A stretch of DNA of 64,000 nucleotides from Polytrichum commune (Eukaryota > Streptophyta > Polytrichopsida > Polytrichales > Polytrichaceae): the NCBI GenBank assembly GCA_950295325.1, contig OX485805.1, positions 49,252,758 to 49,316,757 of the forward strand, given 5' to 3'. Made by a program: the position numbers and the translations under genes. Positions 1,745-59,690 of the stretch are shown one piece after another. The notes beneath the pieces were generated by a model, which saw only the letters and a program-made list of their open reading frames with translations, was not told the DNA's origin and did not search any database. Positions within the stretch are counted from its first letter, which is position 1. Each line of letters opens with the position of its first letter.

Positions 1745-3530
1745 GAGAAGGAGAGGGCACCCAAAACCACAACCCCTTAAACTTTCTCCTACTTAGTAGG
1801 ACCTTATCCTATCCACTAAACCCTCACCCCCTAAACCAACAAGATATATCCCAATTCAAACACTTAAACCCAAGGCCCTTCCCCTTGCTTCATCAAACAC
1901 TACTCACTTAACCAAAACACTCCCTAATGCCACTAAGCTTCTAATTAACCACACAAAATAAGCCTAAGGCCTAAAACATAACTCCACACCAAGCCTCACT
2001 CTTTTTAATACTTTTAATTGTTTTAATAACAACTTCAAATGCAATTCTAAGTAAATTCTAAACCTAAAACAAATATGAGCAACCATTTTGGGCTCATAGA
2101 TAGCGGTAGTAGAAATTGGTAATGTGTAGGACCGGCAGAGGTAGTAGTGGTAGCAATATGCAATAATATCCTAGAACCAGTAGCATGGTAGGACCTAAGT
2201 TAAAAAGTAAGGTAAGGTTTATTAAAAATGACGCGGTAGAGAAAACATTCATGATTTTGTATTAGAACCAGTAGTGTAATAAGGTAATAGCATAAGGGAA
2301 TGAAGTTGAGCATTGATGGGACATGCCAATGGTTACTTGGGGTCAACAAATGCTAATTAAAAAAATATGGAAGCTAGGTTAGTGATGCATGACACATGTG
2401 ATGGCATATAGGTAGTGCTAATGTTAGTAAGTGGTGTGTTGGTTTGCGGATATATTGAGTCATATAGGGTCTGCTTCATTGGGTTAACAAGGACGGCTTT
2501 GAGCTCAATGCATGCTAGAAACGGGGACAACTGGATTGAGGTTGTGGCAACTTGATTCAAGGGTAGGACAAGTTGGGAAAAGGCTAGGTGGGGGCGATAA
2601 AGGCTATTAGGAACTTGCTTTGTAATTAGGCAATGACCTAGTCAAGGCTCCCTATATGTGGTGGAAACTGAGAAGCTAGTACATGTGGTGAGAATTTAGG
2701 CGTTGAAGAAAAAAATTGCATACTATACTTATTTGTAGTGAAGATATTTAAAATATATATTCTATAACAATGTGGTTGCATTTGCTAAGGCATACATGTC
2801 ATCTCTTATACAATTTGAATGCTATATATTATAGGCAAAATCATCCAAAGGATTGGTTCAAGCACTCTCTACCTTAGAGTTACAAACACACTTTTGAGTT
2901 AGTCAATCCTTATCATTTAAAAGCCTGCTGTAGGAATTAAAAATTACACAAAACCATATTACAACAAGAGTTCATGAAATATATGTAATGTATTGATCAC
3001 CTTGATAAGTATATCCAAAAAAAACTTTACTACACTCTAACCTCCGTAGTATCACACCTGTGGGAACCAAAGTGCACGTGATATTACAAAGTTTTGTAGT
3101 GTTAACATGGATGCGTGGTCCTATATAGCACTATATTCGTTAATCGGAGACTTTTGAAAGTCTCAAAATAAAATATGCCCATAGTTTGGGATGCCAATAT
3201 TGTGGGCATATGGAATGTTGGGAACATCAAGAACATGACAATTTAAAAATTCGCACGTAAAGAATATTTTAATACTAAAAATAGAAAATTGCAATTATAA
3301 TGAAAACGTGAACTCCATGTGGAAAATAACAAGCGAATCTAAAAAACAAATGGTTTATGTCATTATAGAGTTTGGGGTGCGCATCCCATAAGTAAGGTTC
3401 TTATGGTTTTGGATGGCACATCCCAAACGTATATCACAATGGAGTATGACAAGTCTACTAAGTCTATTAAAAACCAAGACTACTAAGCACTAATGTTTTT
3501 CCCCGCCGTTAACTTTCACCTATGTTATGT
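831..3530. other. Intergenic DNA, no gene recognised
   Basis: AT-rich DNA without a convincing coding frame. It contains a 41-43 bp tandem repeat with three units at 1544-1645 (each starts AATCCCAGCAGCTCCTA) and a (GA)n run at 1711-1740. Nothing else could be assigned. Confidence 0.6.
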
Positions 3531-6500
3531 TTACCCATCTCCATCTTCCGCTTCATATCCATTCTCGGCGTCATTTTCCGCAGCTACAATACGTGCCAAG
3601 TTGTCTTTGGCAAAATCTATATGTTTTTGGGGGATGGTCATTGCTTCTGTGTTGGAACCTTTGCGCGGCTTCCAAGCACAAAGTATAGTATCCGTGTTTA
3701 TCCAAACCGGTGTGTACGCTGAGTCCACTGTCCACTTAAAATTCTTTTTGGTGTCCCAACCTAAATAAGTGCGGAGCACGTTCTGGTCTTTAGTGCTTGG
3801 ACGACAATATTCCACCTCAATTTGACGAAAGTTGGGGCTAGTTCGAACAAAATTGGGTGAAGACAATGCTTTTACCAACCAAATTGGCTTGGGATGCTCC
3901 TCATCCCTTGCTCGTACGAGGATCAAATAACCTTCATGGCAATCAACACCTACACGAAACGACGGTGCCGGTCAATTGCGGGCAGGGCCAACGTAATGCT
4001 CGTCCATTGCGAACTCTTCACGAGCGTCTCCATTGCTGAAAAACATAGTATTGGACTCGACAACCGTCAAACGACTTTGTGGCCAAAATCCTTGTGTCAA
4101 AGTCGTACGGGTGTCGCCACCAAGTGTCATCAAGGCTGAGCGAATGCGATCCCAATACGCGATCAACGGTTCATGGGTATCTCTAACACGTCTTGTGATG
4201 TCCTCCTCGCACAACTCTTTCCAATATTCAATGAATCCGGATATGCCTTTGATGATTTCCGGCCCATTCCTCATGGGTTCGGGTTTGCAAGGCTTTGGTT
4301 CCCCATCCGGGACCAAACATTTCCCATCCTTGTCTTGACGCCATACGAGTATACCATCATCCGGGCCCCAATTAGGAGATGTGCACAAAAGCTTGAACTG
4401 CATGGCCGGGACACCATCATCCCTCATATAAAATCGGAATTGTTGTGCTTTGGTATGTCCCACCAAACGGTCCACTCCCTTCAACATGTATGGCTTGATG
4501 AAGGCCTTGAAATTTGGTACTTCCTCAATCATGTGCGGTATCACCGGCATATGGTCTAAATCCATATATGATTTCATAAGAAGTGGTATTGTCGGAAAAT
4601 CTTCCTCATGCAACTTCATGCTCCAACGGCCAAATGACACATCAATGTCGTCATGTGTGTGTCCCACCATCAAGAAAGACACAAACACCTCTTTGAAGAT
4701 TCATTTTGCCACGAGCAATGACCAAAAATAAAATATGTATCGACATTTGTTGTCCTTCACACAATTATCTAGTTGAACGTGGAAAGTTGGAGGCAATGGT
4801 TTTGCACAAATGGGTTCTCTAGGTGGTTCCCGTAATGATGACATACAAACCTCCCTCCCCGCAAGCACTGCCTCATAAAGGGGTGTCGTTCCACAACCAT
4901 CAAAAAGTCCACGGGAGGAATGTACCGGTGGCTGCTCAAGATCGCGCAAGAGTCTTGCAAATGAACCCACCGTGTGGTTAGCATCTCTAAGGTAAAAATC
5001 CAAACCATAATGGGTATACTTAACATCCCCATGGCCATGCGCAATCATACCTGGAAAAAACAAACGATGCGTGAACAAAATTGGATGAAATGGAATAACT
5101 ACTAAATGGATGTATGGAGTTGAACATTTGCCAAACACACTCAAGAAAATTTGATAGACTTTAAACACGTCGTTGTGATTTCATACGAACCTGTGACAAC
5201 CACGGGCAACTTGAAGAGACCATCCGTGGCCTTTATTTTGCGTGCATAACAAGGGCATGCGGTCTTAGCGTGGTCCATTTTATCATGGATAACTGTTAGA
5301 ACCTTTGTGGGCCTCATTATAGATAGAGCACGATTTTTGTAGTAATCTTGACGGTGTGCCTCTTGGTTGTTGACATGCTCAATATATTTTGTCTGGTGTC
5401 TGGTATGAGATTCAGTGCCTATGGGGTGGGCGTCTCGAAGACCTTTGTATTTTTCACACGTCGTACACCTAGCGAACTTGTCTCCGGGTCTCTTCAAAAT
5501 GTATTCCGCAAACTGTTGGTTTTTAATCACACTCAATTTGGACAAAGAAATGGGCTCACATCCCGCTATGCGACCCACTTCGTTGATGTCCGTTAATATG
5601 TTCTTCCATTTTGTGCCCGTGGGCAACACCGTTTGAACAACTTTCTCCCCTAATGACAATGTCCTCGTCTTGTGGGGCATTGCATCGGCCAATGGCACTA
5701 TGATCGTGGAGAGTGTCGCCGAGGCTTGGAGTGTAGCCTCCCGAGGTTTCTTTGTGCCCAAATTTCCATGAAATCGAGAGCGGCGACCCAACGATGAATA
5801 CTTTTGAAACCTATAAAAGTCAGACTTTGACACGGCATGGATGGTATACCACGCGGTACAACACACTTCCACATTCTCTAGTGTGACCACCTTATGCCCA
5901 TGGGTGTCAATGTGCACATTTCTGTGGACCTCGAGTTTTTTTGCCGATCTCATACGGAAATCGGCAAGCCACATCTCTTCACGAAGAGACCTAATGTTTT
6001 CGCGAGGAAAAAATTGGCAACATCTCCTCGCGCAACAGTCCTTGGCGGACATGACATGGATAGAATCGTCTCCCAATATGCGATCCCGTCGTCGCTCCTT
6101 ATCACCGCGAGACACGTGGTTAGAATCATATATGCGAAGGCCTTTGCGAGGAGGTAATTTGGCCAACAAAGCTGATTGCGTTTCTTTGTGCCGCCGCCCA
6201 TGATTCCACAAACTTACTTCTTCATGTAGAACTCGACGAAGGGGCCATCGACGCAAGGAAAATCTCCATGTCACCGGAACCTCAAGTGGAAGCAAAAAAT
6301 TCAAGATGCAAACACCAACATCGTCGTCACCGAGGGAGTTGGCATCAATACAATCACGGGGATCGGAGTTTCGACATATGTCATTTGCTACCGGTACCCC
6401 AAGGTCGTTAAGTAGAACAACATCAAGGCCTACCCATTGCTCTCTTCCAAAACCCACAGACAACGGAATGTCACCGTGGTCATCCCCGGAATGTAGAGAT

Positions 6501-6668
6501 TGTTCGAGCCCTTCAAGTGTCTGATCGGGGGATGCATCCACAGGCACCCCCACCACGTTTGTAACGTCAGTACCATCCGCCGACGTGAAAGATAGTTCGC
6601 ATTCACTATCGGCGGACGATGCATTAGTAGACAACTCCAATGAAATATCTCCCAAATGCATCTTCATT
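3531..6668 (-). pseudogene. DUF7869-type transposase-like protein, two exons, two in-frame stops
   Basis: The minus-strand gene reads from ATG at 6668 (an upstream in-frame ATG lies at 6715). Exon 1 is 6668-5191. A GT-AG intron (5190-5051, donor CACAG/GTTCGTATG, acceptor TTTTTTCCAG/GTATG) joins it in phase to exon 2 (5050-3531, TAA). Exon 1 carries a Cys-rich stretch, then CCTAWYTIHAVSKSDFYR, a C-x2-C knuckle (CTTCEKYKG) and DKMDHAKTACP. Exon 2 carries QLDNCVKDNKCR and FLMVGHTHDDIDVSFGRWS. These are hallmarks I associate with the DUF7869 group of transposon-derived proteins in plants and aquatic animals. Two TGA codons interrupt exon 2: 4703-4701 (after SLLVAK) and 3974-3972 (after HYVGPARN). 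The frame and family-like sequence continue past both, so point nonsense mutations (CGA or GGA to TGA) are likely. The full length would be about 1,000 residues. A possible leader acceptor (TTTGTTTAG/GGACA) precedes the start, so the palindrome-rich DNA at 6.8-8.0 kb may be its leader or promoter. The family call is from recognition, not a search. Confidence 0.75.
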
Positions 6669-6801
6669 GTCCCTAAACAAACCACCAACACCTGAACAAA
6701 CAAAAACCATCGCAATGTTCAGAAGAGCGCACAAATTAGATGTCCAAATATATGGCCTAGAACTCAAACAAGGGAACTAACGGAAGGCTCCACAAAAATA
6801 G

Positions 6802-8040
6802 ACGAACGCACGTTCGAAAAGAATACCAAGACATGGAAACACTGCATGGAAATCCCATGGCAATTGACACCGGCAGCAAATTGTGATATATATCATTCGT
6901 GAAGGGTGATCATATGATTTGCACAACCATAGCGAGGATAGCACACCAACCAAGGACAGGTTAAATATACGAACGGCCGTTCGTAAGCTCTTCCCAAAAC
7001 AATATACGTAAATCACACTTGGACCCGGCGCAATTCCAATAACTCAGGCCATACGATGCCTGAAGACATGCCACCCTGTCTGTCGTGGCAAATGACAGGT
7101 ACCACATCCCGGCGTTCACTTGAAAATCAGTGAACGTCATGTTTACGAACGTGCGTCCGTAAGTTCTCTGCCGTACTGTGGGGTTACATGCAGCAATGTT
7201 TGTCTCTAAGTAAAATATCGGATGCGGCAAACATAATCCCAGGTTGTATTTACGAACGAACGTTCGGAAATTTGATGAATCTACGAGTATACGTTTGAAA
7301 TGGCCGTGAGGAGAAACGAACGTTCGTTCGCATATAACTGTCATATTGAAAGTCCAGAAACAATCAGTGATGGTGATGCCTGCGTGCACAATAATCCCAT
7401 GTGGCTTTTACGAACGCGCGTTCGTAAATACCCGTCCATCCTATATGCTTGTGGAGAGAACTGGAAAATGGTGGAATTACAGGTATACATTTGTATGAGG
7501 CTGGTGTACATATTTACGAACGCGCGTTCGTATATCAATGACATCTACAATATGAATATGTCTATCCATATGCACTGCCTGTGACTACCCATGTGCACGT
7601 GTATCTATAGGTCTCTGAAATCGGACTGCTTATACGGTACTTACGAATGTGCGTTCGTAAACTATCCACCATCATCTATCAGACCAATTTATATATGTGC
7701 CAGATCGTGTGATTTACGAACGCACGTTTGTAAATACCCGTCCATCCTATATGCTTGTGGAGAGAACTGGAAAATGGTCGAACTACAGGTATACATTTCT
7801 ATGAGGCTGGTGTACATATTTACGAACGCGCGTTCGTATATCAATGACATCTACAATATGAATATGCCTATCCATTTGCACTGCCTTTGACTACCCATGT
7901 GCACGTGTATCTATAGGTCTCTGAACTCGGACTGCTTAGACGGTACTTACGAACGTGCGTTTGTAAACTACCCATCATCATTTATCTGACCCATTTATGT
8001 ATGTGCCAGATTGTGTGCTTTACGAACGCGCATTCGTAAA
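6802..8040. repeat. Palindrome cluster, left group (12 copies)
   Basis: Twelve copies of an inverted repeat with arms ACGAACG and CGTTCGT separated by two bases and usually flanked by TTTA and TAAA. Approximate starts are 6802, 6968, 7143, 7249, 7314, 7407, 7513, 7641, 7713, 7819, 7947 and 8019. The copies at 7407, 7513 and 7819 keep both arms perfect. Others carry single changes, several of them C-to-T or G-to-A at CpG. The spaces between copies are AT-rich and unrelated except for a 306-bp tandem duplication. The group lies directly upstream of the minus-strand DUF7869-type gene. Confidence 0.95.
7407..8040. repeat. 306-bp tandem duplication carrying palindromes
   Basis: Two near-identical units. 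Palindromes at 7407, 7513, 7641 and 7713 recur at 7713, 7819, 7947 and 8019, each exactly 306 bp later. The intervening DNA matches too (for example TCCTATATGCTTGTGGAGAG in both). Units are 7407-7712 and 7713-8018, plus the closing palindrome, so both breakpoints lie at a palindrome. This suggests recombination between palindromes made the duplication. Confidence 0.9.
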
Positions 8041-10084
8041 ATCCCGGTATTTACGGCGGTATATGCGGGTGTGAAGGTTGTCGTGTACCTGGGAGGTGGG
8101 GGTTGGCGCACACGAAAATGCCTTCCGCGAGCTCCGTCGGGTCTCTGGAGCGCACCCGGCGTGTGCCGCAGAAAAGAGCTTTGCAGTGGGGGGAAGAGCT
8201 TTAAGTACTTGTCTACGATGGTTCAAAATTCCTTGGATGCTCTTAAAAAAGCCGATTCCCGCCGCCTACTTTGACCTACCAGTATGTCATTCCATCCATG
8301 CGCAATTATATATTAAATAGCATTATGTAAGGAACATGTATTGCATACACGCAACTTGATATTGAAAATATGTAAATCGGTCGCAAACCTTAGGTGTTAC
8401 CAAGGTCTCATGAATATAAATATGTATATAATAGATACATAATATCAGAATATGATGTTGGTCAATATAGAATATTAAATGATTTGCGACCAAGTTGTGA
8501 AGTCCAAGTTAATTGACAATGGAAACCTAATATATGTTATGAATGAATGTGATTGTGTGTGTATATATATATATATATATATAACTAAGGTAAACTCAAT
8601 TAAAAACAAGTTGTGGAGGCCCCTAAAATTATAGGAATGCCCATATGATTCACATCGAATCACGCCCGTAATATGCTCACAAGTGTGTGAAAACCATTAA
8701 AAAGATGGGTTAATCCATAATGGCTTGTACTAGGGTAGATTGAGGATAATATGAATCTAATCATAACTAGATGTAAGTTAGGACTAAATTCAAATGTAAC
8801 CATAGGTATAGGAATAATGAATTAAAATGGCATGTATGGAAATGTTTAATTAAGTTGGAATGATCAATATGATAGAGTAATCATAAGAAATGAAACCATA
8901 CTTATGACAAGTCACACTTAAAATTATGTGTTTTACATCCTGTCAGAAGTATGTGGATGCTTGTATTAGATAAAAGTGTTGAGTTACAGTAAAGTCTTAA
9001 GACATGCATGTTATAATGATCCCATGTTTGGATTATGTGATCAAATAGCACTGAAGAGTATTAAGGGGGAAGATGGAGCATTTCAATACTCACTTTTTGC
9101 CCAAACCAAAGCTTTCCCCGAAATCTATTAATGTTGAATCTCAAAATAACAATTGGCATGGTATAAAAAAAAATGTAGGGATGCAGGGTTTAGGGTTTGT
9201 GATAGTTGTGTATTAGGGTTTAGGGTTTTGTCATTAGTACGATACATTACACACACACACAAACAATATTGACTCCTAAAAACCCGTACTGCACTAACTT
9301 AATTTATGCAAGCTCAAAGTTCATGATACCCTCTCTACACAATCTCAAATTGGTCCTTTATGAATGTAATAGTGATTTGAAAAACCATGGTTCGAATTGA
9401 AAGATATTATATTGTTTACGAAAACTGTATATTATTTGAAAACATCATATACACATCCTTAGGGGTGTGTTCTTCATTGGAAACCTATTCCATACATTTG
9501 ATGCTAGCGAGATATCTGACCATATGGCTCATTGGTTAAATGCAATCCCATCATTGTTGAAAATTAAAGTTCAATGCACTGTACAAGTTTTAGTTCAAGT
9601 TGACGCCCAATTAAATGATTCAATTGACGTCCTATTGGAGATTGAATTTTCCTCCACCTCTTGTAAATAAGCGAATAGGGCCTCTAAACAATCTCAAATT
9701 GGGTCCTTTAAGTACTATGTCATATATACCTGAAGAACGATGGTTCAATCTTAAAGTTATCTCGTTCATGAAAACTCTATACTGTACAACACCATATACA
9801 CATCCTTGGGGGTGGATTCTTCATCGCAATCGCACAAAATGCATATATTATTGTGCAATACGAATTAACTTAAGGTTGTTTTGAAAATATGTTTACAAGG
9901 AATCTAATAGTAAATGTACTAAGGGCATATGGTAATCAAAATTCATGTCTTCATACTAAGTTCTTTAAGTTAATGTGATTAATGCTTCCATTACATATAA
10001 TACATATACACATGTTTTACGCCCCCCCTTCATTACATCTACATCCATCTCCAATTGCATTTCCCCCCATCCCCCCATCCCCCC
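8041..10084. other. Intergenic DNA with simple repeats, no gene recognised
   Basis: The GC-richer start (8070-8280) has no convincing frame. A (TA)n run lies at 8562-8583. Plant-telomere-like TTTAGGG units occur at 9186-9230, too few and too imperfect to be a telomere. A roughly 345-bp spaced direct duplication links 9330-9500 and 9676-9840 (both contain CAATCTCAAATTGG and ATACACATCCTT). No palindrome of the 6.8-16.2 kb family occurs here. Confidence 0.6.
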
Positions 10085-10092
10085 ATCCCCCC
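10063..10092. repeat. (CCCCCCAT)n simple repeat
   Basis: Four imperfect units of CCCCCCAT just upstream of the G-box-like CACGTGG at 10092-10098. Confidence 0.9.
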
Positions 10093-10618
10093 ACGTGGAG
10101 CGTCGCCAATGAAAGGACGGCATTGGGCCGTCGCCATTGGCAGAACGCCATGTGGCAGCCAAGGGTAAACCCTAACGGCGCCGGCCACCACCCCGCGGCC
10201 CTTCCCACTTCTCCTCATTCTCAATTGGAACAGAGAGGAGGAGAGGAGAGCTTAGAATATTCGAAGCGAAGCTCTGCCAGATTGTAGTCTGCCTTGTTTT
10301 ACTTTGCTTGAAGTTGTGTTTGAGTTGCATATTTCGCTTGAGAGGTGACTTATTGTGAGTAGGGAGCTTGAGGGTTGCAAGAGCGCTAGTAGACTCACCT
10401 GCAGTTTGAATATTGGGATTTGAAAGCTTGAAGCTTGAAGCTTGAAGCTGCACCAGATTAGGCGCTAGGGTTTGTACATAAAGAGTGAGGCCTTGAAAGT
10501 GTGGTGAAGGAGTGAGTGGTGCAAGAGTGCATTTCAACAACAGGCATTGTAGATTTGTGTGTTGTTGTGTGGTTTTTTCAGCAAGGGAGAACCAATTTTT
10601 GTCAAGGAACACTTCAAT
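10085..10618 (+). promoter_or_regulatory. Probable promoter and 5' leader exon of the ParB/methyltransferase/FCP1-like gene
   Basis: The sequence becomes GC-rich and holds a G-box core (CACGTGG, 10092-10098), a CCAAT box (10106-10110) and a telo-box-like AAACCCTAAC (10167-10176). Such elements are common in plant promoters. A purine-rich leader-like tract follows, with an imperfect AAGCTTG repeat near 10420-10450. A good 5' splice site (CAAT/GTGAGTAC) at 10619 could pair with GTGCAG at 11393, which directly precedes the ATG. That would give a 775-nt leader intron holding seven palindromes. No TATA box or start site could be fixed. Confidence 0.5.
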
Positions 10619-11393
10619 GTGAGTACATTCCATCCAACTTGCCTCACAACCCACATCCTGAATTGGTTCATTGTAGATTTCCTTTTGCATTGTTTGAAGG
10701 GTGAGCCTTGGCAGGTTTTGCATGCAATTTGAGCTTTGCTAATCATTCTAAAGCTCAGATATGTTGTGTTTTTCATTTTTTGTTCAATTCAATCGTTCTG
10801 ACCACGCACTTGCAAGCATTCTACACATGAATAAGCACATTCTACCCTATACGTATTCGTATATATATACGAAACCGTATATATACGGACAAGATGTGAA
10901 CAGCCAAACCAACCACATTTACGAACATGCGTTCGTAAATGCGAATGCATTGCCTAACCCAACCCTTTTTACGAACGCTCGTTCGTAAATACCCCTATCC
11001 AAAGCCCATGCGAAGGAGTTTTACGAACGCGCGTTCGTAAATACCCTTCACCCACAACACAAATTCAAAACTTTACGAACGCTCGTTCGTAATATACGAT
11101 ACAAAACAACATACACCAACATACTGTCAGTGATAAACACACTAAGTGAAATCATTCAAACCAAATATCAATCTTACGAACGCACGTTCGTAAAAACGTG
11201 AAATGTAAATTAAACCGACCAAAAACTATTTACGAACGATCGTTCGTAAATATGAACAAAGGCCTCTAGATCAAATATATGAAATGTTATACAACCAAAC
11301 CAACAATGCAAACAACATTGTCTGCGGCATAGTGGTACCACTCACGAACGAACGTTCGTAAATACTTCACTAAAAGTGTACATCATTGTGCAG

Positions 11394-12689
11394 ATGGCTA
11401 GATCAACCAGGAGTGCCATCGAGATGTTCGCAGTGAAGGTGGACAGCCTGCCACAGTCAGTGTCGGATACAAACGACAATGACAATTACGTCCCAAAGAT
11501 CGACTTCATGGGGGAGTGGACAGCGCTGCCAGAGAAAACCGAAGACGGTCTTTTTGTCCTGCGCTTCACCTACGAGCTGGAGACGAGACCGGACCAGCCA
11601 GAACAATGGGTGCAGATGAAGACATGGGAAATAGAGTCAATAGAGGCCCAGGGGGATTACGTCATTTTGGATATGAAAAACAAGAAGGACCACATCAACC
11701 TCCTCTTGCACTACATGGAGCACTCCTTCTCCCACAATTACGCCATTCTGACCGTGGGAGAAGAGGCCAAGCATTTCAACCTGCAGAATCACTTCACAAA
11801 GTACGCTTTGAGCCAGTACTGGACAGCCAGAAAGTTAACTGCCTTGGCTTTAAACATCTCCAAGTATAAAAGTGTGGTCGCCGAGGCGAACAAGAAGAAG
11901 AAGAGTCCTAGAAAACCTTCTGTGTCCGGCGCAGGAGGTTCGAGAAGTGCACCCCGGCCTGTGCCATCCGCGAGCCGGGGGACGGACGGGCCCAGCAGAC
12001 AGTCCACGCCATCCAAAAGGACAAAGGATGACTTGGAAAAATCGGGTGTAACAGACACGGCGGAGGTGAGCTCGCCTCCCGTTATGCCAATTCCTTTGAA
12101 GAAGGGACAAAACCCGGACGCCGTGAAGGCTACCAGAATCCTGAGAGACTTCAACACTTACTCAAAGGATTGCTGGCCCATGGGGAGGCACTTTACATTC
12201 AACGTTGATTGCTTCAAGTGCGAGAAATCGCCAAACAAGTGGGTGGTGAGGTCTCGTGAGAGCGGGGGTGTCAAGTGGCAAATTAACAATTTGATGAACA
12301 ACGTCAAGTGGGACAGGCAGACCGTTTGCGTGATGCCGAAGGGCTTCACGTCCCGTCCGACTGAGAAAGATTGGCCCCGGATCCAGAATGGTGAGTTCTG
12401 GATCATAGATGGACAGCACAGCCTAGAGGCGTCGCAGCTCATCCTGAAGGACGATAACTTCCAGCATGAGCTGAAGGCGGACCTGCGCTACTGGAAGGCC
12501 TTCTTGGTGTGGTCTGACGACTGGGACAAGCTCCGAAAGATTTCAACTTTCTTGAACTCAGGCAATAAGATAAAGGCGTTTGAGGCGTCCTGGGCAGCAA
12601 ACATAGTGGCTGCACGAGATGTCTAGGTGGCACATGGTTGCCCACCAAAAGAGAGAGAGAACGCGAAGACCCAGTCTCCTCAGTGGAAG
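11394..12689 (+). other. Exon 1: ParB/DGQHR-like region
   Basis: Residues 1-432. After an N-terminal part of unknown type comes a basic, Ser/Pro-rich linker (about 160-230). Residues about 250-410 resemble the ParB/sulfiredoxin-like fold of DGQHR-type proteins. The core motif is WIIDGQHSLEAS, with D339-G-Q-H-S343 (canonical DGQHR). The region before it (PNKWVVRSRESGGVKWQ) may match the strand-rich start of that fold. The last stretch (KISTFLNSGNKIKAFE) fits the helical follow-on in which such proteins often have an F-x2-LN signature. The in-frame TAG is at 12624-12626. No helix-turn-helix of bacterial ParB was recognised. Confidence 0.6.
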
Positions 12690-15600
12690 GTATGTTTACG
12701 AACGAACGTTCGTAAAAGTCACTGCATTTCAATTTTCTTTTTTTCATGAAGTTTCCATTTCACGAACGTGCGTTCGTATTTAGAGCAACACTGACATTTG
12801 TTTCGCATTGTAGGCATTTTGCGATGCGATGGTGGACAAATTTTCCTCTATCGATATGAAGTCCACCACCACAAAGTCAGTACTTGAGCTGAAGGGTGAG
12901 CTCCGTCTCATCTGCTGCAACAGGGACACTTGGGAGTTGTGGACCCAATTTTTTGACGCGCACAGCTCGGGCGATCTCGTGAACCCCGACACCGAGGAGA
13001 AATACAGCTCGGACAAGACCGGAGAGGCCCCTCCACTCCTAAGGAAGTTTTTCAGGTCCCTGCAAGGACTCACGGAGTCCGAACTTCAGCGCTGCGCGGT
13101 TCATGTACTTGGGAACACAGTTGGGAGAACAATCCCATATCCCAAGATTTTTTTGAAGAGGCCCAAGCATAAGCCCGGAACATACTCCATCAAGGAATGG
13201 TGTGAGCATAGGAAGATGAAGACATCTATGATGCGAGAGCTTAGCGCTCTCGTGCCAGAGATGCACCTCTTCCTTGCCGACGGCGACATCAACTGGGCCA
13301 ATTGGAAGGTGTTCAAGTCGCGTTACAACATCAACGGGGCCTCAATGCGAAGCCTAGTGAAAGAGCACATCGCCGTTCTGAAACTCAAGGGCAATAAGAG
13401 GGCCAAGAAGACCGAGACAGAACCCGAGGAGCTGCAACGGTACATCTCCTTCTTGGAGAGGAAGCGTAACGCCACATTCGAGGGCGTTGCCAGATTTTGT
13501 GTGGTGACCACGGGGCTGGAGAGGACCACGTTTTCCAAGTGGGATGGCACCTTCAGCAGGTCCGAGGTCAGGGAGGATCGAAGGGGTTGTCCCTTCGCGG
13601 TCATCGACTTCAGAGGGATCCCCGGTGCCTCGCGACAGGGCGCGAAGGGGGAGCCTTTTTACAACCCTTTCATGGCGAAATTCATGGAGCACAAATCTCT
13701 GACCATGAGGGAGCCGCACGTATGGCTGTGGATTGTGGAGCAGGAGAAGCAATCCGACGTCATCGAATTGTATGAGAACAAGATCAAGTTCGAGTACAAC
13801 ATCTTCCACAACACATACGTGCCAGCGAAGACGGAGGGGATTGTTGCCGTAAACGAGGCCAGAGGCAACAAGCAGGTGGGAGCGGTGAGCCTCATCTTCT
13901 TGACGTACAATGCGCTTAGGAATGGGCGAGCACCCATAAAGGCGAACAACACATTCAAGAAGATATACAGCATCCCTCACCCACCTCCAAAGGATCTCTT
14001 CCAGGAGACTTTGTACACTGTCTTCCCAGCGCTGGAGCTGAGGATGGAGTTCTACATCTCCATATTGCAAGGTTTGGCGATGACTGGCGAGACTGTCTAC
14101 AACATATTTGGGGGCAGCAAATTTATGTACGCGGCCATGGTAAGCCATCTCACACCACTTTTTACGAACGCTTGTTCGTAAACACTACATGCTCCAAACA
14201 ATTTATCATGGGCAACCGATACTTATGATTGTTTTGTGAATTGTTTTGTTAATATTTCCTCGCTCGAAGCCTTTATGTTTACGAACGCGCGTTCGTATAT
14301 GACTGAATCTTTGCCTTTGTATCTCAGATGCTGGGGCTGTGCGTGAACACATACATTGATGCCGTCGACGAGGAGGATTACAAGTTCCACAGGACAAAAG
14401 CGTCGACGATGGACCTAGCTGACATGTCCGTGCCCAGAACGGACTTCAACATGCAGGCTGACGAAGGCATGCCTCCCATGGAAACAGACGACGACGAGCC
14501 TGGCCCCTCCGTCAACGTCGATGCCATCCTCCAGGCTTTGGATGTCACCCCTCTCCGGTTGTTGGCCCCATCGGGGGAGCCTTCGGAATACCAAGGGACC
14601 CCGGCTGGATGTACTGGATCCTCGGCAGGTGCCACCCAGGATGTCCTCCCCGCAAGAGTGTCTGGTGCGGAACCCTTCGGCACGCCTGGAGGCTGCTCGA
14701 CTTCAGTGTCTCCAAGGCCCATCGTTGTTCCGAGGATGGAGACCCTCGACCTCCTCGACCAACGCTCGCGTCCATCCTTGGACCTCTTCCGAAACACGAG
14801 GAGGAGGATGAAGAAGACGCCGTACGTGGAGTTGCCTGAGGGAGCAATCATCGAGGTGTCCGACGAGGACGAGGGCGACATGGACATCATGGCGGAGCTG
14901 GGGGTCGATTACGACAAGAACAAGCGGGTGAAGGAGGAGGCGCTGACTGTTGCCGAGCTGAATGCCAAGCTAGAGCAGAAAATGAAGGAGGAAATGGCGG
15001 CTGCGGCAGAGGAAAGTGCAAGAAATATGGCCCGCATGCAGGAGGCGCTGCGGGAGTCCGCAGCAAAGACGGACGCCATATTTGAGATGCTCAAAAATAT
15101 GCAGAGCTTCTCAGCACCAGCACAACAGCCTTACCCCTTCCCCGGAGGATACCCCACCCATTCCCCCCATCCAGGCCTGTTCCCCGGAGGACCTTCGCAC
15201 CCACCAGCACCACACCCAACGCCAGCTGGGAGTCCTCCGCCCCCTCAAATGACTGCCACCCCCGCCAACTCCCACGATGCGATAAGGGCTGCCATACGCG
15301 AGGACGAAGATTTACGAACGCGCGTTCGTGAATCCTCAGGTCCTGCAGTCCTAACCCCTCCCCCTCCAAGGATAGGACTGGCCTCAGTCACGGACACCGC
15401 CTCTTTGACAGTCGTCCCGAGGGTAGTGGATAGGCAGGGCGATGAATCTGCGCAACACACTGACATGGTCATTGTGGAGGAAACGCAGGGGAGCCCCAAT
15501 GACACGGCAGCTGTCCAAGGAATGGACGTTGAGAGCCCTGACCTAGGACGACATCCATCCGCGGAGATGGAGGATGTCCGCATGGACACTCTTGACCTGG

Positions 15601-17116
15601 GCGGAGACGACGACGACGACGAGGCGGACCACATTGTGCAGACCCAGGCGTCACAGTCGGAGCGTGCCACAGATGCCATGGAGACAGAGGCGGCTGGCCC
15701 AATGGGGATTACGAACGCGCGTTCGTTAATCGAAGAGGAGGGAACTGCTCGGTCCAGCGCCGCTGCCCCTCCCCTCGATGACGAGGTAACTCTCCTCTGA
15801 GAATACCACTCATTTGACGAACGCGCGTTCGTAACCACTAACCCATGCGCGTTGTGTTCTTGGCGGTTCCTGTCCATCAGCATCACGAGGCGTGCGAGGA
15901 CTCTTCTCTACGTGGACCCTTAGCCCGATAAATTTTGTAGAACACGGCATGTATTTGCCATAGGAAACTGTGAAAAATTATCACGTGAGACAATTGTAAA
16001 TATTCACCGAATTAATATATGAGCATATGATCTCTGCGTCGCATCTCCCAAACTTATTGTATCGTATCGCATCTTGTATTATGTATGTTCATGCGCATCA
16101 TTACACTTTCACACCCACCTCATTAACGACCGCCCGTTCGTAAAAGGGTGCGACCATCTGTCCACCTCCTTCACGAACGAGCGTTCGTAAATGATGCGCC
16201 ACCCCAGCCTTCATTCACGAACGCTCGTTCGCAAGTCTGCACTTGACCACATTCTCCTTGCACTATTTTCCTCGCATAATCGTCTTTTCCTTAATGCAAT
16301 GTTATTTATTGGATCATAGAATTAAACTAGTCGAGTTGTTAATCACAGGATCCCCCGGAGATAGGTCGGAAACCCTCGACCAGTGGACGTCTTACCCGAA
16401 ACAAACCGTTCGTCGTGTTCGACCTGAACGGGGTGTTGTGTCACACCGAACACATCCCCCGGGTCCCCACGCGTCCCTTCCGTCACCCCGACGAAAGGGA
16501 CTACGACGGAGAGCTCGACACGCTCATTAACCGCAAGGCTGTCCGCGCCCGTCCCGGCCTGCGTGACTTCCTTCGAGAGGTGCTCGATGTAGCTCACGTC
16601 ATTGTGTGGAGCTCCATGGTCATGGAGAACACCGAGCCAATCGTTGACTTCCTCTTCCGCGATCTTCCGAGGCCTTGCCTCATCCTCGGCCAAGAGGATT
16701 GCGATGAATTGCTTGACGAAAAGGGTATGCCGGTTCCAAAGTTCGGCGGTCGTGGCGGAGGACAACAATTCCTCAAGGTCCTGAGGTCAAGACTGTGGCG
16801 GGGCATCCCCCGGTTGCAGGGGGTACCCCACGGGTGGTGGCCTACCCCCGAGAACACCGTCCTCGTCGACGACAGCCCCACCAAAAGCGTCTTGAACCCC
16901 CCGGGGAACGTCATCTTCCCCGCCACTTGGACCGGCGATAGGAACGACACGTTTGTGGTCGATACGCTAGCGCCTTACCTTAGAAGGCTTGTTGTCCACG
17001 CCGGTAGCATACCATTTTTTGTTAGGTCCAACCCCATCGGCAATGTGGGTTTAAGCCCCCGTGATAATGTATTCAAGAGCATCATGAGGCTCGCCAAACT
17101 CAATAAATTGATTTGA
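11394..17116 (+). CDS. Multi-domain gene: ParB/DGQHR-like, degraded DNA-methyltransferase-like and FCP1/NIF phosphatase-like segments; one in-frame TAG
   Basis: Four exons join in frame: 11394-12689, 12814-14139, 14328-15785 and 16349-17116 (1,615 codons before TGA). Donors are GTATGT, GTAAGC and GTAACT; acceptors are TTGTAG, TCTCAG and ATCACAG. Junction phases agree at all three introns, which supports one gene. The start is chosen because ATG at 11394 directly follows the acceptor-like GTGCAG. Codon 411 is TAG (12624-12626), between ARDV and VAHGCPPKE, and is not removed by any visible intron. It may be a TGG-to-TAG mutation, so this could be a young pseudogene. Composition is clearly coding: GC-rich with few stops across 4.8 kb. 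ParB-domain/methyltransferase fusions are known in phages and bacteria; I do not know this combination with an FCP1 domain. Every intron, and exon 3, carries the palindromes. It lies head to head with the DUF7869-type gene. Confidence 0.7.
12814..14139 (+). other. Exon 2: methyltransferase-like segment with degraded catalytic motifs
   Basis: Residues 433-874. The end of the exon, read into exon 3, has GETVYNIFGGSKFMYAAM followed by MLGLCVNTYIDAVDEEDY. This matches the layout of motif I in beta-class N6A/N4C DNA methyltransferases (G-D-x-V-L-D-P-F-x-G-S-G, then A-x2-LGR and D-x2-Y). The key Asp-Pro is N-I here and GSG is GSK (N862 to K868). Upstream, FAVIDFRGIPG (D697) sits where the catalytic DPPY/DPPW motif IV is expected, but the Pro-Pro-aromatic part is missing. 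PHVWLWIVEQ resembles the strand after motif IV. The fold is plausibly conserved and catalysis probably lost. A structure-based comparison would settle this. Confidence 0.5.
14328..15785 (+). other. Exon 3: acidic, coiled-coil and Pro-rich linker containing two palindromes
   Basis: Residues 875-1360. It begins with the end of the methyltransferase-like motif. An acidic, Pro-rich region follows, then a charged helix likely to form a coiled coil (about 1065-1110: VAELNAKLEQKMKEEMAAAA), and a Pro/His-rich stretch. Two palindromes are translated. At 15311-15332 one gives LRTRVRE (1203-1209). At 15709-15730 the other gives ITNARSLI (1335-1342), where an extra T makes TTA of what would be an in-frame TAA. 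The rest is acidic (GGDDDDDEADH). The exon is taken to end at GAG/GTAACT (15785); without splicing the frame stops at 15800. Confidence 0.6.
16349..17116 (+). other. Exon 4: FCP1/NIF-type HAD phosphatase-like domain
   Basis: Residues 1361-1615, entered at ATCACAG/GATCCC in phase 0. The domain starts PFVVFDLNGVLCHTEH. D1385 is the expected nucleophile of the HAD signature DxDx(T/V), but the second Asp is Asn (N1387), as in some plant NIF-like proteins. Motif II is HVIVWSSMVMEN. The acidic motif is LVDDSPTKSVLNPPGN (D1534, D1535), typical of CTD small-phosphatase/FCP1 proteins. Family members dephosphorylate Ser in the RNA polymerase II CTD or other proteins. With Asn for the general acid, activity here is uncertain. 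No ATG opens this domain, which supports it being a downstream exon rather than a separate gene. Confidence 0.8.
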
Positions 17117-17228
17117 AATTCCTCCATGTCTTTGCTTGTTATCGTGTGGTTCACATATCTAATGCTTGCTCTGTTTTGGATGTCTTTTGTTGTTGTGATT
17201 GTTGTTGTTTTTGTTGTTCTTGCCCATA

Positions 17229-18187
17229 GTCTGCCCCAATATGCTACGCCCCTGTGGTCGACGGCCCTTCCCGTCCCCTCTCGCCCCCTGCCTCCCCTTC
17301 CCGCGACGTCACGGACTTCCAAATGCCATCCCTCTACCACTTTTCGGCGGTCGACGCGGCCTCGGCTGTGGATTACTCCCGTGACGTCGGCATCGACGAC
17401 GGTGTCGTCAACAGCCCGCCCCCCGCACTTGTCACCCGCGCCTACGCCCCGTCATCCTCCCCCCTCTCCAAGGAGAAACGGACGCTCGTTCGTTTGGGGC
17501 ACCTCTCGCCCTCTAGGGACGACGGCGTCTCCGCATGGACTTTGCCCCCGCCGACTCCGTTCCTCCCCCCGCAACGTCCTCCGCGATCGTGGGCCCTCCA
17601 GGCCTCGACTCCCCCCCGCCATCCAACAGTGCAATAGTTCCATCGGCTCCGGATGCTCCCGTCGACGCCCCCCTCATTCCCACCGTTCCCCGCATGGACG
17701 TCCTCAAAGCCAAGGTGCCCTCCTCAACCCTAAACCCCTTTCCCGCTTTTGCTTTGCTTGTCTTCCGTGTGCGTGCCGTTCTCTTTACGAGCGCCCATCC
17801 CAAACCGCCCTCATTATTTTCCCCACTCCATTCCCATTCTTATCTTCCTATGACGTTGTTTCGCAGGTGGCTACCCGCTCGCTTGGTGCCCGGCCCTCCT
17901 CCACGTCCTCCTTGGATAGGCACGCCCTCAAGGCCGCATCTTCCGAGTCCGATCGTTGTCTGGCCCTCCGGAGAAGCGCAAGACGTTCCCTTTCGCAAAC
18001 GCCCTCGTATTCTACTTATAATACCACCTCGTACAATTCGGGAGCGCGTCCTGAAACATGCAAGAACAACACATATTCCTGTCCAGGCAACACACAAGGA
18101 TACAGTCGTGGGCCTGAGATTTTTAGAGCCATGGAGGCCGCCAAAAAAAAGGACTTAGCCGCAAAAAAAAATAGTGGGTCGGACTAG
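17229..18187 (+). CDS. Proline-rich exon-like tract, frame interrupted; relation uncertain
   Basis: A pyrimidine-rich tract ending in CCCATAG (17228) precedes GC-rich DNA with coding-like but shifting frames. One frame runs to about 17520 (contains VDYSRDVGIDDGVVNSPPP and SKEKRTLVRLGHL). A second continues from 17535 (MDFAPADSVPPP to MDVLKAK at about 17715). After a possible intron (AAG/GTGCCC at 17716 to TTTCGCAG at about 17866) a third runs VATRSLGARPSSTSSLDRH to a stop at 18187. The change near 17525 suggests a frameshift or a missed splice. It could be a 3' part of the preceding gene or a separate decayed gene. No domain recognised. Confidence 0.3.
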
Positions 18188-20129
18188 TGTGACTAGAAGC
18201 GTACTAGTGGGACGGACTCCCTAAATGGGCTTAGGTGTAGAACATATTTAAGTGCTTACTTTCTATGCTATTCCAAGTTACTCAAGACATTGATGGTATT
18301 TCCATTATAATTGTATTTCAATCCCAATTAATTCATTCAACTTCCATTCATTCTTCGCATCTTCCCTTCCATTCATAACGAGTTGTCATTTCATACGCAA
18401 CTATTTTCATGTATGCCTCACATTTTTGTTCACTTTCATGCCTTTATGTATAATAATAGTAGCATACCATTATACATATGGGATTTTTAGTCGTCATTAC
18501 TGGTCCAATTTTGAAATGTGCATCCTTATATAGTCTCATAATCAACAAAAAGTCTCCAATTACCGAATATAGTGTTATATAATTAGTGTAGCATGTGACA
18601 CTATGGAATAACACAAAGTGCAACATTTTAATGGTGTGGTGTGGTCTGCTCCACTTGGCCTTCCCGGGCGATGTGGCATATGCATGCACCGACATTCAAC
18701 AAGTGGCATAAGAAGAAGAAAAAGAAGAAGAATAAGAAGATGACACTCCACACGTTGACACATGGCGCAATGCGAGAATGTGGGTTGACTTCTTGAATGG
18801 TCTGCATTAATGACAAAATTCATGATATAAGGAAGAGAAAGGTGACAATAAGGAGTGAGATTTGAACTACGAACGTCCGTTCCCTAGGGTGTCGGGATAT
18901 TAGAGAGTGAGTGACATTATGGAGGTTGATATTACGGAGTTTAGGGTGTACGTACCCCAATCATAACATTGGGGCCTTCGTGTAAATGATAGTGGGGTAT
19001 GACTACATATGGTACATAAAGATGGTTGTGGATATGCCTCCGATATGTTGTCGGTTTACAAATACTGAAGCAAGCCAGAAGTGGTTCATGTGCACCAGGC
19101 AGGGGTTTTCTGACGCTTATGCATGCTTGTGACACCTGGGCCAGTCCTTCCTCTGCCAAAAGTGAGAGTCTTGTCTCCTTGACCTCAAATCGCTTGATTG
19201 CATGCCTAGTAAAGCTCTGCGGAGTGTTGAGTGCATGTACGTTTGCGAGCCTGCAAGGTAGCTGGCTTTGAAGGAGATGGAAGAAGGTCTTGTTATTACT
19301 CAGGCGTTAGTGACGTACTGTCACGTGGTCAGGCGTCTCTAATTGGGGGAGAGAGAACAATATCACTGAGCGCGTATCAACACATAATAAACACTAAAGG
19401 CCCGTTTACATCATGGATAATGAAGTTGGATCATGGAAGATGGCCTTTTTTCATCGTTCGATTTCTTGAAAAATCAATAATTTACAAAGCCTTTGGGCCT
19501 TTCACTAGGTGTAAACCGAATGTGAACCAAGAGGAATGACCATGCACCAACTTCATGATCCATGGTGTAATAAGTTAACCCCTAAGAAAGTTAGTTTCAT
19601 GGAAAATTGTGAAAAATATAACATTCAATCATAATATTTTTGGAAGAAAAAGTTTAGGGTTGTAATTAACCGAAAATTTATGGACAGTGGTGGTCATGGT
19701 GGTGGTGGTGGTGGTGGTCATGATGAGGCCATCATCGAATTGTTCTTGCCTAAAATAAGATAGAGAGGAAAAAAAATCATATGTAAAAGATTTATTCTCA
19801 AAACCAACATGTGATCAAGAAAAATGTGAAGGGAGGGGGTGAGTGTAAAAAGAAGGTTAACACTTATATTGAAGATACGAACTCCCCAAAGGAACTTGGC
19901 AGCACCATTAGAGTCAAGTGGTTTGGATGGTCATGATTTGCACTATTGATAAAGGGTAAAAATCACGTGGGTTTAATGTCTACATTGGGAGGAGGGACCA
20001 TTTAGCCATTAATCCTCTACGACTTAAATGGAAATCAGGAGAGGAGTTCTTATGCTACATCTTTTGCCATTGGGAGAAACGCATTCAATCGAAAAACCCG
20101 TCACCTAAGTCATCATGACCAAGTGGCAT
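18188..20129. other. Intergenic DNA, no gene recognised
   Basis: Holds a degenerate trace of the palindrome at 18868-18885, a (GAA)n-like run at 18709-18740 and a (GGT)n run at 19688-19718. Segment 19024-19390 is related to 21808-22400. No coding frame can be supported. Confidence 0.6.
19024..19390 (+). repeat. Duplicated segment, copy A (copy B 21808-22400)
   Basis: Shares GGTTGTGGATATGC, TCGGTTTACAAATACT, AAGCAAGCCAGAAGTG, GCGAGCCTGCAAGGTAGCTG and the TCAATACA/TCAACACA...ATAAACACTA tail with 21808-22400. Copy B is interrupted by a hAT MITE (22110-22320) that is absent here. Confidence 0.8.
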
Positions 20130-40067: not shown

Positions 40068-41775
40068 CACCCTAACCTTGATAATATCACACTTGTTAAT
40101 AGAACACCTTGATATTGTCACCTAAAAGTTTGAAACCGATTTCCATAGTGTAAAACTCCCTCGTTATTATCACTATCACCCTTGATAATGTCACATTTTT
40201 TTTTCAAAATTTGTAGTGTAAGTGTGATAATAACAAGTAACATGGATGAAAAAAGGCCGGATGGACAACAAATTCTATGGATGACAAATTCTACAGACGG
40301 AGTCGGAGTTGCATTGGCCATGGCAAAGATCCCATTCATATTGAAGAAATATGATCCAGAAGACATCTTCAATTTTGATGAGACAGGTTTGTATTATAGA
40401 GCCTCTCCTTATAAGACTTTGAATATTGGGAAGGCGAAAGGAAATAAGAAAAAGAAGGACCGTGTGACATTGGGGCTTTGCACTAATATCTCAGGGAAGG
40501 AGCGATTGAAGCTTGTTTTCATTCACAAAGCAGCGCGTCCCAGATGTTTTCCTCAGAATTTTGATCCAAATAGGACAGTACACTATTATTCTAACAATTC
40601 AGCCTGGATGAATGGTGATGTTTTTACACATTGGGTGAAGAGTGAGAACCGAAGAATGGCATTGAAAGACAAAAATATTTGCATTATTATGGATAATGCA
40701 GGAAGCCATGATATTCATGGTGAGGTCAAGAAAGTTATAGATGGGTTTAATGCTTTTGTACTCTCCCATATCACTATATTGTTCCTTCCACCAAATGTGA
40801 CTTAAGTTGTTCAGCCTTTGGATCAAGGAGTGATTGTAGCATTCAAAATGTGCTATAAGCGCAAGCTTGTTGCCTGGACTTTGCAACAAATTGATAACAA
40901 CTCAAATGAAGATTTGGGGAAATTGAATGTTGATGTATTTCAAGCTATGCTATGGTGTGTGGCGGCATGGCATGAATTAGATGATCAAACCATTAGAAAT
41001 TGTTGGAGAAAGTTTGCCATATTGCCTACAAAGTGGAATGCAGATATAAACAATCTTGATGAACGTATGAAGTCCAAAATAAAGGAAGCAACTTTGGAAT
41101 TGGGTAGACTCATCGCCGCATTAAATTTGGGTTTGGATGTTGAAGGCAAGCCTGTAGAAAAGCTTTGTCCTTTGGAGTACATAAACATGGAAGGTGAAGA
41201 TGATTTTGAGGTGGAATTTTCTACTGAGGAGCTTGTGCAATTAGTGCAAGATGGCGAACATGTTCTTGATTCCATGGAAGTGGACCCATTGATTGTTGAT
41301 AGCAGTGATGATGAGTCTAAAGTAGTGAAGCTAAGCGATGCACAAAATATATGCTAAAGATATTTTGAATTTTATGGCTAGCCAAGGTTCTCAGATTTTC
41401 AGCACTCATGAGTTGTTAGAAATGGAAAAAATCCATGACAAACTCATTAGAATTGGTGTTGCACATTTAACATCAACAAAACAATGTGACATTAGAAGCT
41501 TCTTTGTCTCTAGTGAGAGGTCTTTACCTGATCTCAATGACACATTATGATGTGCTCTTGTTGTTATTCACAATTTTGAATTAGATTTTACATTCAAAAA
41601 CATTGAAGTCTCGTATTTGTTATTTTTTTAAAATTGTTATTATATTTTGATTTTCTACATATTTTTTGATAATATCACATTATGCACAAAATGTGACATT
41701 ATCAAGTATGTCACACCTTGTTTATATCACACTTTTTGGTGAAACGGAGGGTGTGACATTATCAAGGTTAGGGTG
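40068..41775 (+). mobile_element. pogo/Tigger-type DNA transposon (Tc1/mariner superfamily), 1.7 kb, internally deleted
   Basis: Terminal inverted repeats of 25 bp are CACCCTAACCTTGATAAT..ATCACAC at 40068-40092 and its reverse complement at 41751-41775 (one mismatch noted). TA flanks are at 40066-40067 and 41776-41777. Sub-terminal copies of the CTTGATAATGTCACA motif near 40180, 41670 and 41695 are likely transposase-binding sites. The element encodes only the DDE part of a transposase. Confidence 0.93.
40182..41357 (+). pseudogene. pogo/jerky-like DDE transposase, N-terminus missing, one in-frame TAA
   Basis: One frame from 40182 (or ATG at 40242) to TAA at 41357, broken by TAA at 40803-40805. 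It has the hallmarks of the DDE_1 domain: FNFDETGLYYR (first Asp), IIMDNAGSHD (second Asp) and ILFLPPNVT then VVQPLDQGVI. The stop stands where Ser is usual, so TCA-to-TAA is likely. The C-terminus is acidic (VDPLIVDSSDDES). The CENP-B-type helix-turn-helix expected at the N-terminus of pogo transposases is absent, so the element could move only with help from another copy. Confidence 0.9.
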
Positions 41776-58699: not shown

Positions 58700-59690
58700 T
58701 TGTTCTGGAAGCCCTCAGGGTGAGGAGGTTGCATCCGAAACACAAACGGAGTCCTCCATGGAGGAGCTGTTGTGTTTCTGAACTCGAGTTCCATGCTAAG
58801 TTCGTACTCTCAGACTTGGAGTGAGGTGTTCATGTGAGTAATTTTTAATTTGTTCTTGAAGCCCTCAGGCTGAGGAGGTTGCATCGATCACAAGCGTCCT
58901 CCATGGAGGTGTTTCTGAACTCCAGAATGCTAAGCTCGTAGACTTAGGCTTGGAGTTAAGGTATTCGTGTGAGTAAGTTTGTTCTCAATGCCCTCAGGGT
59001 GAGGAGGTTGATTCGGTCACAAACTTCCTCCATGGAGGAGGTGCTATGTTTATGAACTCGAGAATGATAAGTTTCGTATAGTGCCTAGATTTGGAGTAAG
59101 GTATTCATGTGAGGAAGTTTGTTCTCGAATCCCTCAGGAGGAGGAGGTAACAACAATCACACACCTCCTGCACGGAGAAGCTGCTGTGTGGCTGAACTCC
59201 ACAATCATAAGTTTGTATATTGAGGCTTGGAGAAAGGTATTCATGTGAGTATGTTTGTTCTGGAATCCCTCAGAGTGAGGAGGTTTCATCGTCACAAACC
59301 TCCTCCATGGAGGAGCTGGTGTGTTTCTAAACTCCCGAAAATGAGCCTAAGTTCGTATCCTTCAGACTTGGAGTAAGGTATGGATGTTGAGTAGGTTTGT
59401 TCTCGCGTTGCTGTTTCACTTATCTCACCAAAAAAACAAAAAAAGAATCTCAAAACCCTCAGGGTACAGAGGTTGCATGGATCACAAACCCCCTCCATGG
59501 AGGAGTTCCTGAGTTTGCATACTTAGACTTAGAATAACGTATGGATGTAAGTAAGTTTGTTCTCCAACTGTTGCATTTGTCTTGGAAAAATAAGAATACA
59601 ATAAAAAGATGTTCTAGAGGCCCTCATGGTGAGGAGGTTGCATCGATTACGAACCTCCTCCATGGAGGAACTTCTGTGTAATTCCCATTA
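58700..59690 (+). repeat. Degenerate tandem array in the F-box leader, seven units plus one outlier
   Basis: Units start at CCCTCAG/CCCTCAT near 58712, 58862, 58991, 59131, 59267, 59456 and 59621, with an eighth at 60118 (spacing 129-189 bp in the array). Each has GAGGAGGTTGCATC, then a spacer, then CCTCCATGGAGGAG, so the RNA could form a short hairpin (AGGAGG against CCTCCT) and carries a CCTCCATGGAGG palindrome. Most units are preceded by a TGTGAGTAAGTTTGTTCT donor-like word. None has a continuous reading frame. Confidence 0.8.

Follow-up and report, generated by a model that had tools for sequence, protein, structure and literature searches.

Clade-specific palindromes of a moss DNA transposon family as candidate self-recognition sites

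Introduction

The targets of VANC in Arabidopsis VANDAL transposons are motifs that lie upstream of VANA21 and in the introns of VANB21 and VANC21, are tandem-amplified and differ among VANDAL groups (PMC5735166). Repeated motifs presumed to be protein-bound also occur in the large CACTA/EnSpm elements of soybean, Tgmt*, with two subfamily motifs in one species (PMC2613891). The Ectocarpus transposon Sola1-1 encodes, on the strand opposite the transposase, a ParB-like and methyltransferase protein that may bind and modify its own transposon, and similar proteins are also reported from green and red algae (PMC12477816). Here we describe CpG-rich palindromes carried by a DNA transposon in a 64-kb stretch of the genome of the moss Polytrichum commune (contig OX485805.1, positions 49,252,758 to 49,316,757; hereafter the window).

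The palindromes belong to a transposon family, are conserved above their surroundings, are tandem-amplified and differ by clade together with the genes of the element. Binding by a protein, the role of gene B of the element as its source and the effect of binding are what we infer from these sequences. The palindromes are probably operator-like sites of a dimeric, element-encoded protein, most likely the gene B product, that recognizes its own family. Their closest analogues would be the protein-binding motifs of transposon-encoded proteins (VANC in VANDALs, TNPA in CACTA elements) rather than REP-like elements.

Palindromic sites and the transposon

The palindrome has the arms ACGAACG-NN-CGTTCGT with a free 2-bp centre. 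A scan allowing up to three mismatches found 35 matches in the window as compared to 0.83 expected (0 of 100 shuffles reached 35). With up to two mismatches, and with overlapping shadows removed, there are 31 sites, 29 of which lie within 6802–16232 (17 exact, 12 with one mismatch). A first-pass annotation had described these 29 sites and faint traces beyond them, and both were recovered; the traces are the sites at 17478 (one mismatch) and 18869 (two mismatches, weak). All sites except 18869 fall inside the transposon. Twelve of the 29 are upstream of gene A (6802–8037), and the other 17 surround or interrupt gene B, the same split as reported before: seven upstream (10921–11359), two in each of the two introns, two in the exon 3 frame (15314 and 15711; 15314–15726) and four 3' of the gene, between it and a phosphatase-like gene (15817–16232). 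The sequences between copies are unrelated in general, as previously stated, but the left group includes a 306-bp tandem duplication (sites 7410/7716/8022, 7516/7822 and 7643/7949). Across 126 sites from four elements the consensus is ATTTACGAACG-NN-CGTTCGTAAAT, with the centre free.

Alignment of the window with two other copies (L039/L040 and L041/L042, with 98.5–99.4% identity between the two over the main aligned blocks) placed the shared ends at 3129 and 18574. Based on these shared ends and the flanking 4-bp duplications, the element spans 3127–18576, a decayed copy of 15,450 bp. It is flanked by the target duplication ATAT (3123–3126 and 18577–18580), and L041/L042 is flanked by TCTT; L039/L040 has no target duplication. 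The left terminal inverted repeat (3127–3155, plus strand) is of the AACACTATATTCG type with the first letters AG in the window copy, the right one occupies 18548–18576 on the minus strand, and the 34-nt arms of this copy are 91% complementary. The inverted-end pattern matched the genome 376 times in forward and 377 times in reverse orientation (reversed control, 0). Among 23 facing end pairs picked by hand from the first 100 matches listed on C1, a 4-bp duplication immediately flanks AACACTA in 19, as compared to a mean of 1.23 after partner shuffling; 3-bp duplications on C1 showed no excess at any offset beyond 3/23. Three of these pairs delimit mini-elements of 243–253 bp (L052–L054). These have CACTATATTCG ends with the outer letters AT, TT or GA instead of AA, and two of the three have a 4-bp duplication.

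Stops interrupt gene A and gene B in the window copy, and other copies are open. The gene A remnant (3972–6667, minus strand) matches DUF7869 (PF25273) with E-values of 2.5e-19 and 3.4e-12 on two pieces; in copy L041 the gene is longer and open and the match reaches 2e-40. From its conservation and place, gene A is probably the transposase. A literature search found no mention of DUF7869. Gene B (11394–15800, plus strand) has three exons (11394–12689, 12814–14139 and 14328–15800; splice sites placed by reading), and the window copy has a single in-frame stop, in exon 1. The spliced model in copy L042 is an open frame of 1356 amino acids. The two genes are under purifying selection, with dN/dS between 0.05 and 0.27 where computable, although several dS values are saturated and the 0.27 values come from near-identical pairs.

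Both introns of gene B carry palindromes near each end: intron 1 (12690–12813, plus strand) at 12698 and 12762, and intron 2 (14140–14327, plus strand) at 14164 and 14281. Among 32 sequences of the window's clade, the window copy itself included, two intron 1 sites are present in 32/32 and at least two intron 2 sites in 31/32 (L013 has none); elements of a sister clade have sites in the same introns. In a comparison of eight hand-picked subfamily representatives, intronic arm columns were identical in 737/784 and 770/784, as compared to 0.598 and 0.588 of the other intron columns. A motif match in either of the two sequences compared was enough to define a site, and this favours arm identity, but not by this much.

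Two clades of elements and sites

The genome scanned comprises 407.8 Mb spread over 64 contigs, of which seven exceed 42 Mb. It has four matches to LEAFY (0 in 14 control genomes), and one copy reads KPKMRDYVHCYALH; Asp at that LEAFY position is the moss type, and by its LEAFY gene the genome is that of a moss. Exact ACGAACG-NN-CGTTCGT palindromes occur at 5602 places, as compared to 4 for a backwards-pattern control, so the earlier claim that they are found nowhere else holds for the window and fails for the genome. Among the matches listed, 100/100 exact sites of this type fall into six clusters with no singletons, and 81/100 lie at most 20 kb inward of an exact element end (22 ends used). 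Of the GG-centred subset, 8/100 listed sites are singletons, possibly with neighbours of other centres. Dense GG-centred clusters are also present on C1 at 16.41, 31.48, 34.34, 50.56 and 76.15 Mb. Gene B exon 1 has at least 102 scored matches in the genome (1057 first-look candidates) and exon 2 at least 95 (1173 first-look candidates). The first-pass annotation had proposed a genome scan in which multiple clusters, each around a gene of this kind, would speak for a linked system, and the outcome favours such a system. Its description of a palindrome set that is neither satellite nor CRISPR and is tied to particular genes was right. Its analogy with bacterial or organellar palindromic elements was not, the unit being a type of site inside a DNA transposon family with defined ends.

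The elements read fall into two clades that differ in their main palindrome. Window-like elements (AAC) contain exact ACGAACG sites: 17 in the window, 24 in L041/L042, 24 in L046/47 and 33 in L043. Three sister elements of the same layout (GAC; L044/45, L048/49 and L050/51) have ACGGACG-NN-CGTCCGT as their main palindrome, with 14, 10 and 13 exact copies and 0, 1 and 1 exact ACGAACG sites, respectively. The two lone ACGAACG-type sites (L049:3351 and L050:6951) precede the start of gene B by 59–76 bp. The GAC palindrome occurs exactly at 1394 genome places (control, 1), and 50/50 of the sites listed are in six clusters with no singletons. When TTA/TAA flanks were included in the pattern, C or T at the variable arm position was found at no place in the genome, and arms with another second letter were found at 39, mostly ACGGCCG. 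This third palindrome, ACGGCCG-NN-CGGCCGT, has at most 39 genome places, one of them in gene B intron 2 of L045.

Between the window and the three GAC elements, protein identity is 74–84% for gene A, 60–61% for gene C and 52–63% for gene D. For gene B it is 42–43% in exon 1, 52–53% in exon 2 and 31–33% in exon 3. These identities and the clade-wise site counts show that the palindrome version follows the element clade and that gene B changes most. Because there are two versions, each with its own version of the element genes, the palindromes probably mark self-recognition by an element protein. Many open copies of the gene B proteins of both clades are present in the genome, and several gene A matches among those listed have no gene B partner. 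On C4 (30556307–30584252), an AAC element with gene B at 30574550 is, by position, seemingly nested in a GAC element with gene A at 30556307 and gene B at 30582936.

The gene B protein

No library family, Pfam included, matched gene B above cut-off, and sequence searches of the PDB gave nothing meaningful. Membership of the ParB/DUF6551 group is suggested by a conserved block, GEF[WY]I[IV]DGQHS; in the window this DGQH block lies at approximately 12387–12626 on the plus strand, and its matches are individually weak. The family phrog_1033 ('ParB-like partition protein') matches three of six gene B members (best E 0.014), and matches below cut-off include DUF6551 (E 0.077), DUF1015 (0.064) and GmrSD_N (0.03). 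A tblastn search of phages returned 19 records at E 1–9, and 12/12 of the matches listed are annotated as ParB-like; the best is a DUF6551 protein (3.3e-21 to that family). When exon 1 of gene B was compared by hhalign with seven phage DUF6551/ParB proteins, the match had a probability of 91.3% over 20 columns, as compared to 0.2% for gene A and 0.4% for gene B exon 2 as controls. These matches back a ParB-like motif in gene B, not yet a fold. The bacterial flavour noted in the first-pass annotation survives in this block alone. One of six exon 1 members also matches phrog_21482, a family of unknown function (E 0.0026).

A methyltransferase reading of exon 2, suggested by the strings 'IDFRG' and 'VFGGSK', was dropped when family, phage and motif searches came back empty: gene B gave no N4C/N6A methyltransferase match among families or phages, and exon 2 has no DPPY/FxGxG-type motif in the two clades.

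Comparison with known systems

The moss elements resemble the VANC/VANDAL system in their motif arrays upstream of a transposase-type gene and in introns, in tandem amplification, in a family-specific motif and in a fast-diverging protein (PMC5735166, PMC10398659). The arrays are largely noncoding, with 12 of the 29 sites upstream of gene A, seven upstream of gene B and four in introns, and related families differ in motif and protein alike (three GAC and four AAC gene-bearing elements). The VANDAL21 motif as reported (PMC5735166) is the 9-base non-palindromic YAGTATTAY in one orientation, whereas the moss sites are CpG-rich palindromes of 16–24 bp. Demethylation is shown for VANC, whereas for the moss elements the CpG mutation proxy lends it no support. 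VANDALs are Mutator-like, whereas the moss element has CACTA-like ends, 4-bp duplications, a DUF7869 gene and a ParB-like protein. Its 4-bp duplications, and the failure of Pfam families to match gene B above cut-off, indicate that it is not a VANDAL member. Mutator target duplications are 8–11 bp.

With the Tgmt* elements the moss family shares CACTA in the terminal repeats, large size and a repeated, presumably bound motif in two versions (PMC2613891). The CACTA elements of that account (PMC2613891) have 3-bp duplications and motifs within about 160–730 bp of the ends, whereas the moss elements have 4-bp duplications, AACACTA ends and internal sites. The moss ends include CACTATATTCG with two further letters outside it, and the sites in the window are not subterminal. 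Given the 4-bp duplications and internal sites, this is not a standard CACTA element.

Sola elements have a 4-bp target duplication. The duplication of the moss element fits Sola, and gene A matches DUF7869 only. Sola1-1 is likewise a large element (PMC12477816), and its accessory gene resembles gene B in position, in orientation (opposite the transposase strand) and in a ParB-like part, which in gene B is a match of motif length. The Sola1-1 protein has an N4C/N6A methyltransferase domain (PMC12477816), whereas none was detected in gene B. No target sites are described in the cited portions of that report, whereas the moss elements offer candidate sites, and the host is a moss. The gene B system may be a land-plant relative or analogue of the algal ParB-type system in which candidate target sites are visible. 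Bacterial ParB–parS offers a further likeness in its palindromic sites of about 16 bp clustered near a gene resembling the ParB superfamily. The moss sites have another sequence and the DGQH block is all that is shared; there was no evidence of partition, and no search for a ParA partner was made. The palindrome strings matched 44 papers, and the 12 listed, judged by title, look unrelated.

Function of the palindromes

The free centre, two-fold symmetry, extended flanks and promoter and intron positions of the sites suggest a dimeric protein acting on element expression. In the mechanism we propose, a dimer of an element protein would bind the palindromes, and that protein is most likely the product of gene B, which holds the ParB-like block. 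It would then control the element's own genes, as suggested by sites in the promoter regions of both genes A and B and in the gene B introns. Since the sites are arranged much as VANC targets are, self-recognition is favoured; its likeliest effect would be to activate the family or counter its silencing, as VANC proteins do on VANDALs. Elements with sites and no gene B would be served in trans. A more specific version, which we advance tentatively, is a self-recognition system of a land-plant transposon made of a ParB-type protein and parS-like palindromes. The protein would load on the sites of its own clade and spread or recruit factors for expression, with site and protein specificity changing together (ACGAACG to ACGGACG).

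Several observations weigh against this proposal. The hhalign match spans just 20 columns and single-sequence family matches are below cut-off. AlphaFold models of exon 2 of gene B and exon 2 of gene A are of low confidence, with mean pLDDT 44.9 and 31.2. Gene B is singled out as the binder by its divergence alone, since no swapped element was seen (by eye, among the matches listed, no GAC-type gene A stands beside an AAC-type gene B), and genes A, C and D remain candidates. CpG transitions in 18 close copies are not rarer near the palindromes (25/936 inside sites, 19/628 at 1–50 bp, 41/1702 at 51–150 bp, 56/3255 at 151–400 bp and 54/3180 beyond 400 bp), so there is no hypomethylation footprint. 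The observed/expected CpG ratio outside sites is 0.81–1.25 in the clusters of the window and L041/L042 and 0.53 and 0.94 in those of L044/45, as compared to 0.47–0.62 in the gap; this comparison is mixed and confounded by composition.

The sites might instead serve as transposition cofactor sites, on which an element protein assembles the transposition complex in the manner of TNPA in CACTA elements. We think this unlikely, although element L043 would fit it: this 9.5-kb element has intact-looking ends and a target duplication, retains fragments of genes A and C and no tblastn match to gene B, and keeps 33 exact palindromes in tandem arrays of 34–160-bp units. A TNPA-like precedent, with a motif that diverged between two soybean subfamilies, has been reported (PMC2613891). 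Against it, the sites are internal, the outermost ones of the window copy lying 3.7 kb (left) and 1.1 kb (right) inside the element, and they are concentrated at promoters and introns. The three mini-elements that share the terminal repeat core carry no palindrome at up to three mismatches.

A role in RNA, in which the sites form hairpins or the two sites of an intron pair, bracket it and control gene B splicing, is quite unlikely; it stays a live rival because the intron sites are placed in pairs and show a weak C>T bias. In either intron of gene B, one site is close to the donor and the other about 30–45 nt before the acceptor, and the two pair in the minimum free energy fold. At the four intronic sites of the 18 close copies, CpG C>T changes number 14/324 and G>A changes 3/324 (p 0.013), as compared to 94/4383 and 76/4382 elsewhere, a lean that would preserve G-U pairs. 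The same motif, however, precedes each of the two oppositely oriented genes, and perfect palindromes are bound to pair in a fold. The skew is weak, the copies are not independent, and for all six sites p is 0.11.

A host transcription or silencing factor reading the palindromes is also quite improbable: host binding could conserve promoter sites equally well, but two versions tied to clades within one genome, and restriction to one family, suggest element-specific recognition. That the palindromes are an independent REP- or MITE-like repeat inserted many times, or an assembly artefact, is hardly credible, because the sites cluster in one transposon family (self-standing REP/BIME-type dispersal was not seen among the matches listed) and keep homologous intron positions while the flanks diverge, and because many related elements of the same layout lie on separate chromosomes.

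If self-recognition by an element protein is the function of the palindromes, recognition through motif arrays would have arisen independently of the Mutator-like VANDALs, in an unrelated moss transposon with a bacterial-type DNA-binding module. If the protein is of the ParB type, the palindromes would also be the missing target sites of the accessory proteins of that type that have been proposed for algal transposons. One genome would hold two natural variants of specificity, each half-site differing by a single base pair (A-T to G-C). Given these variants and many open copies of both proteins in one genome, the recognition code is directly testable, as is the proposal (PMC12477816) that ParB-type transposon proteins bind their own element. 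The protein might also become a tool that recognizes a specific sequence of 16–24 bp.

Other features of the element and the window

Gene C (16343–17116, plus strand) encodes a phosphatase resembling the NLI-interacting-factor (HAD) type (PF03031, E 2.1e-15), and homologues are present in all three GAC elements read. It has FDLNGVLC where NIF/HAD phosphatases usually have DxDx(T/V), and identity to the sister clade is about 60%. The gene D fragment (17227–17526, plus strand), recognized by tblastn matches in sister elements, holds the mixed palindrome ACGGACG-CT-CGTTCGT at 17478.

Divergence varies along the elements. For L041/L042 and L046/47, dS is 0.227 in gene A exon 2 (L041 and L046) and 1.25 in gene B exon 1 (L042 and L047). 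The right end is 97–98% identical among the window copy, L040 and L047, and gene B is about 80% identical. This pattern suggests that element ends have been exchanged around a fixed core of gene B and palindromes, the exchanged modules of the window copy being 3127–6717 and 17545–18576.

Elsewhere in the window, a remnant of a DDE_1 (pogo/Tigger-type) transposase lies at 40149–41357 (PF03184, E 7.7e-17). An unrelated palindrome, TCCTCCATGGAGGA, occurs six times in 0.9 kb (58752–59669, up to one mismatch), as compared to 0.02 expected.

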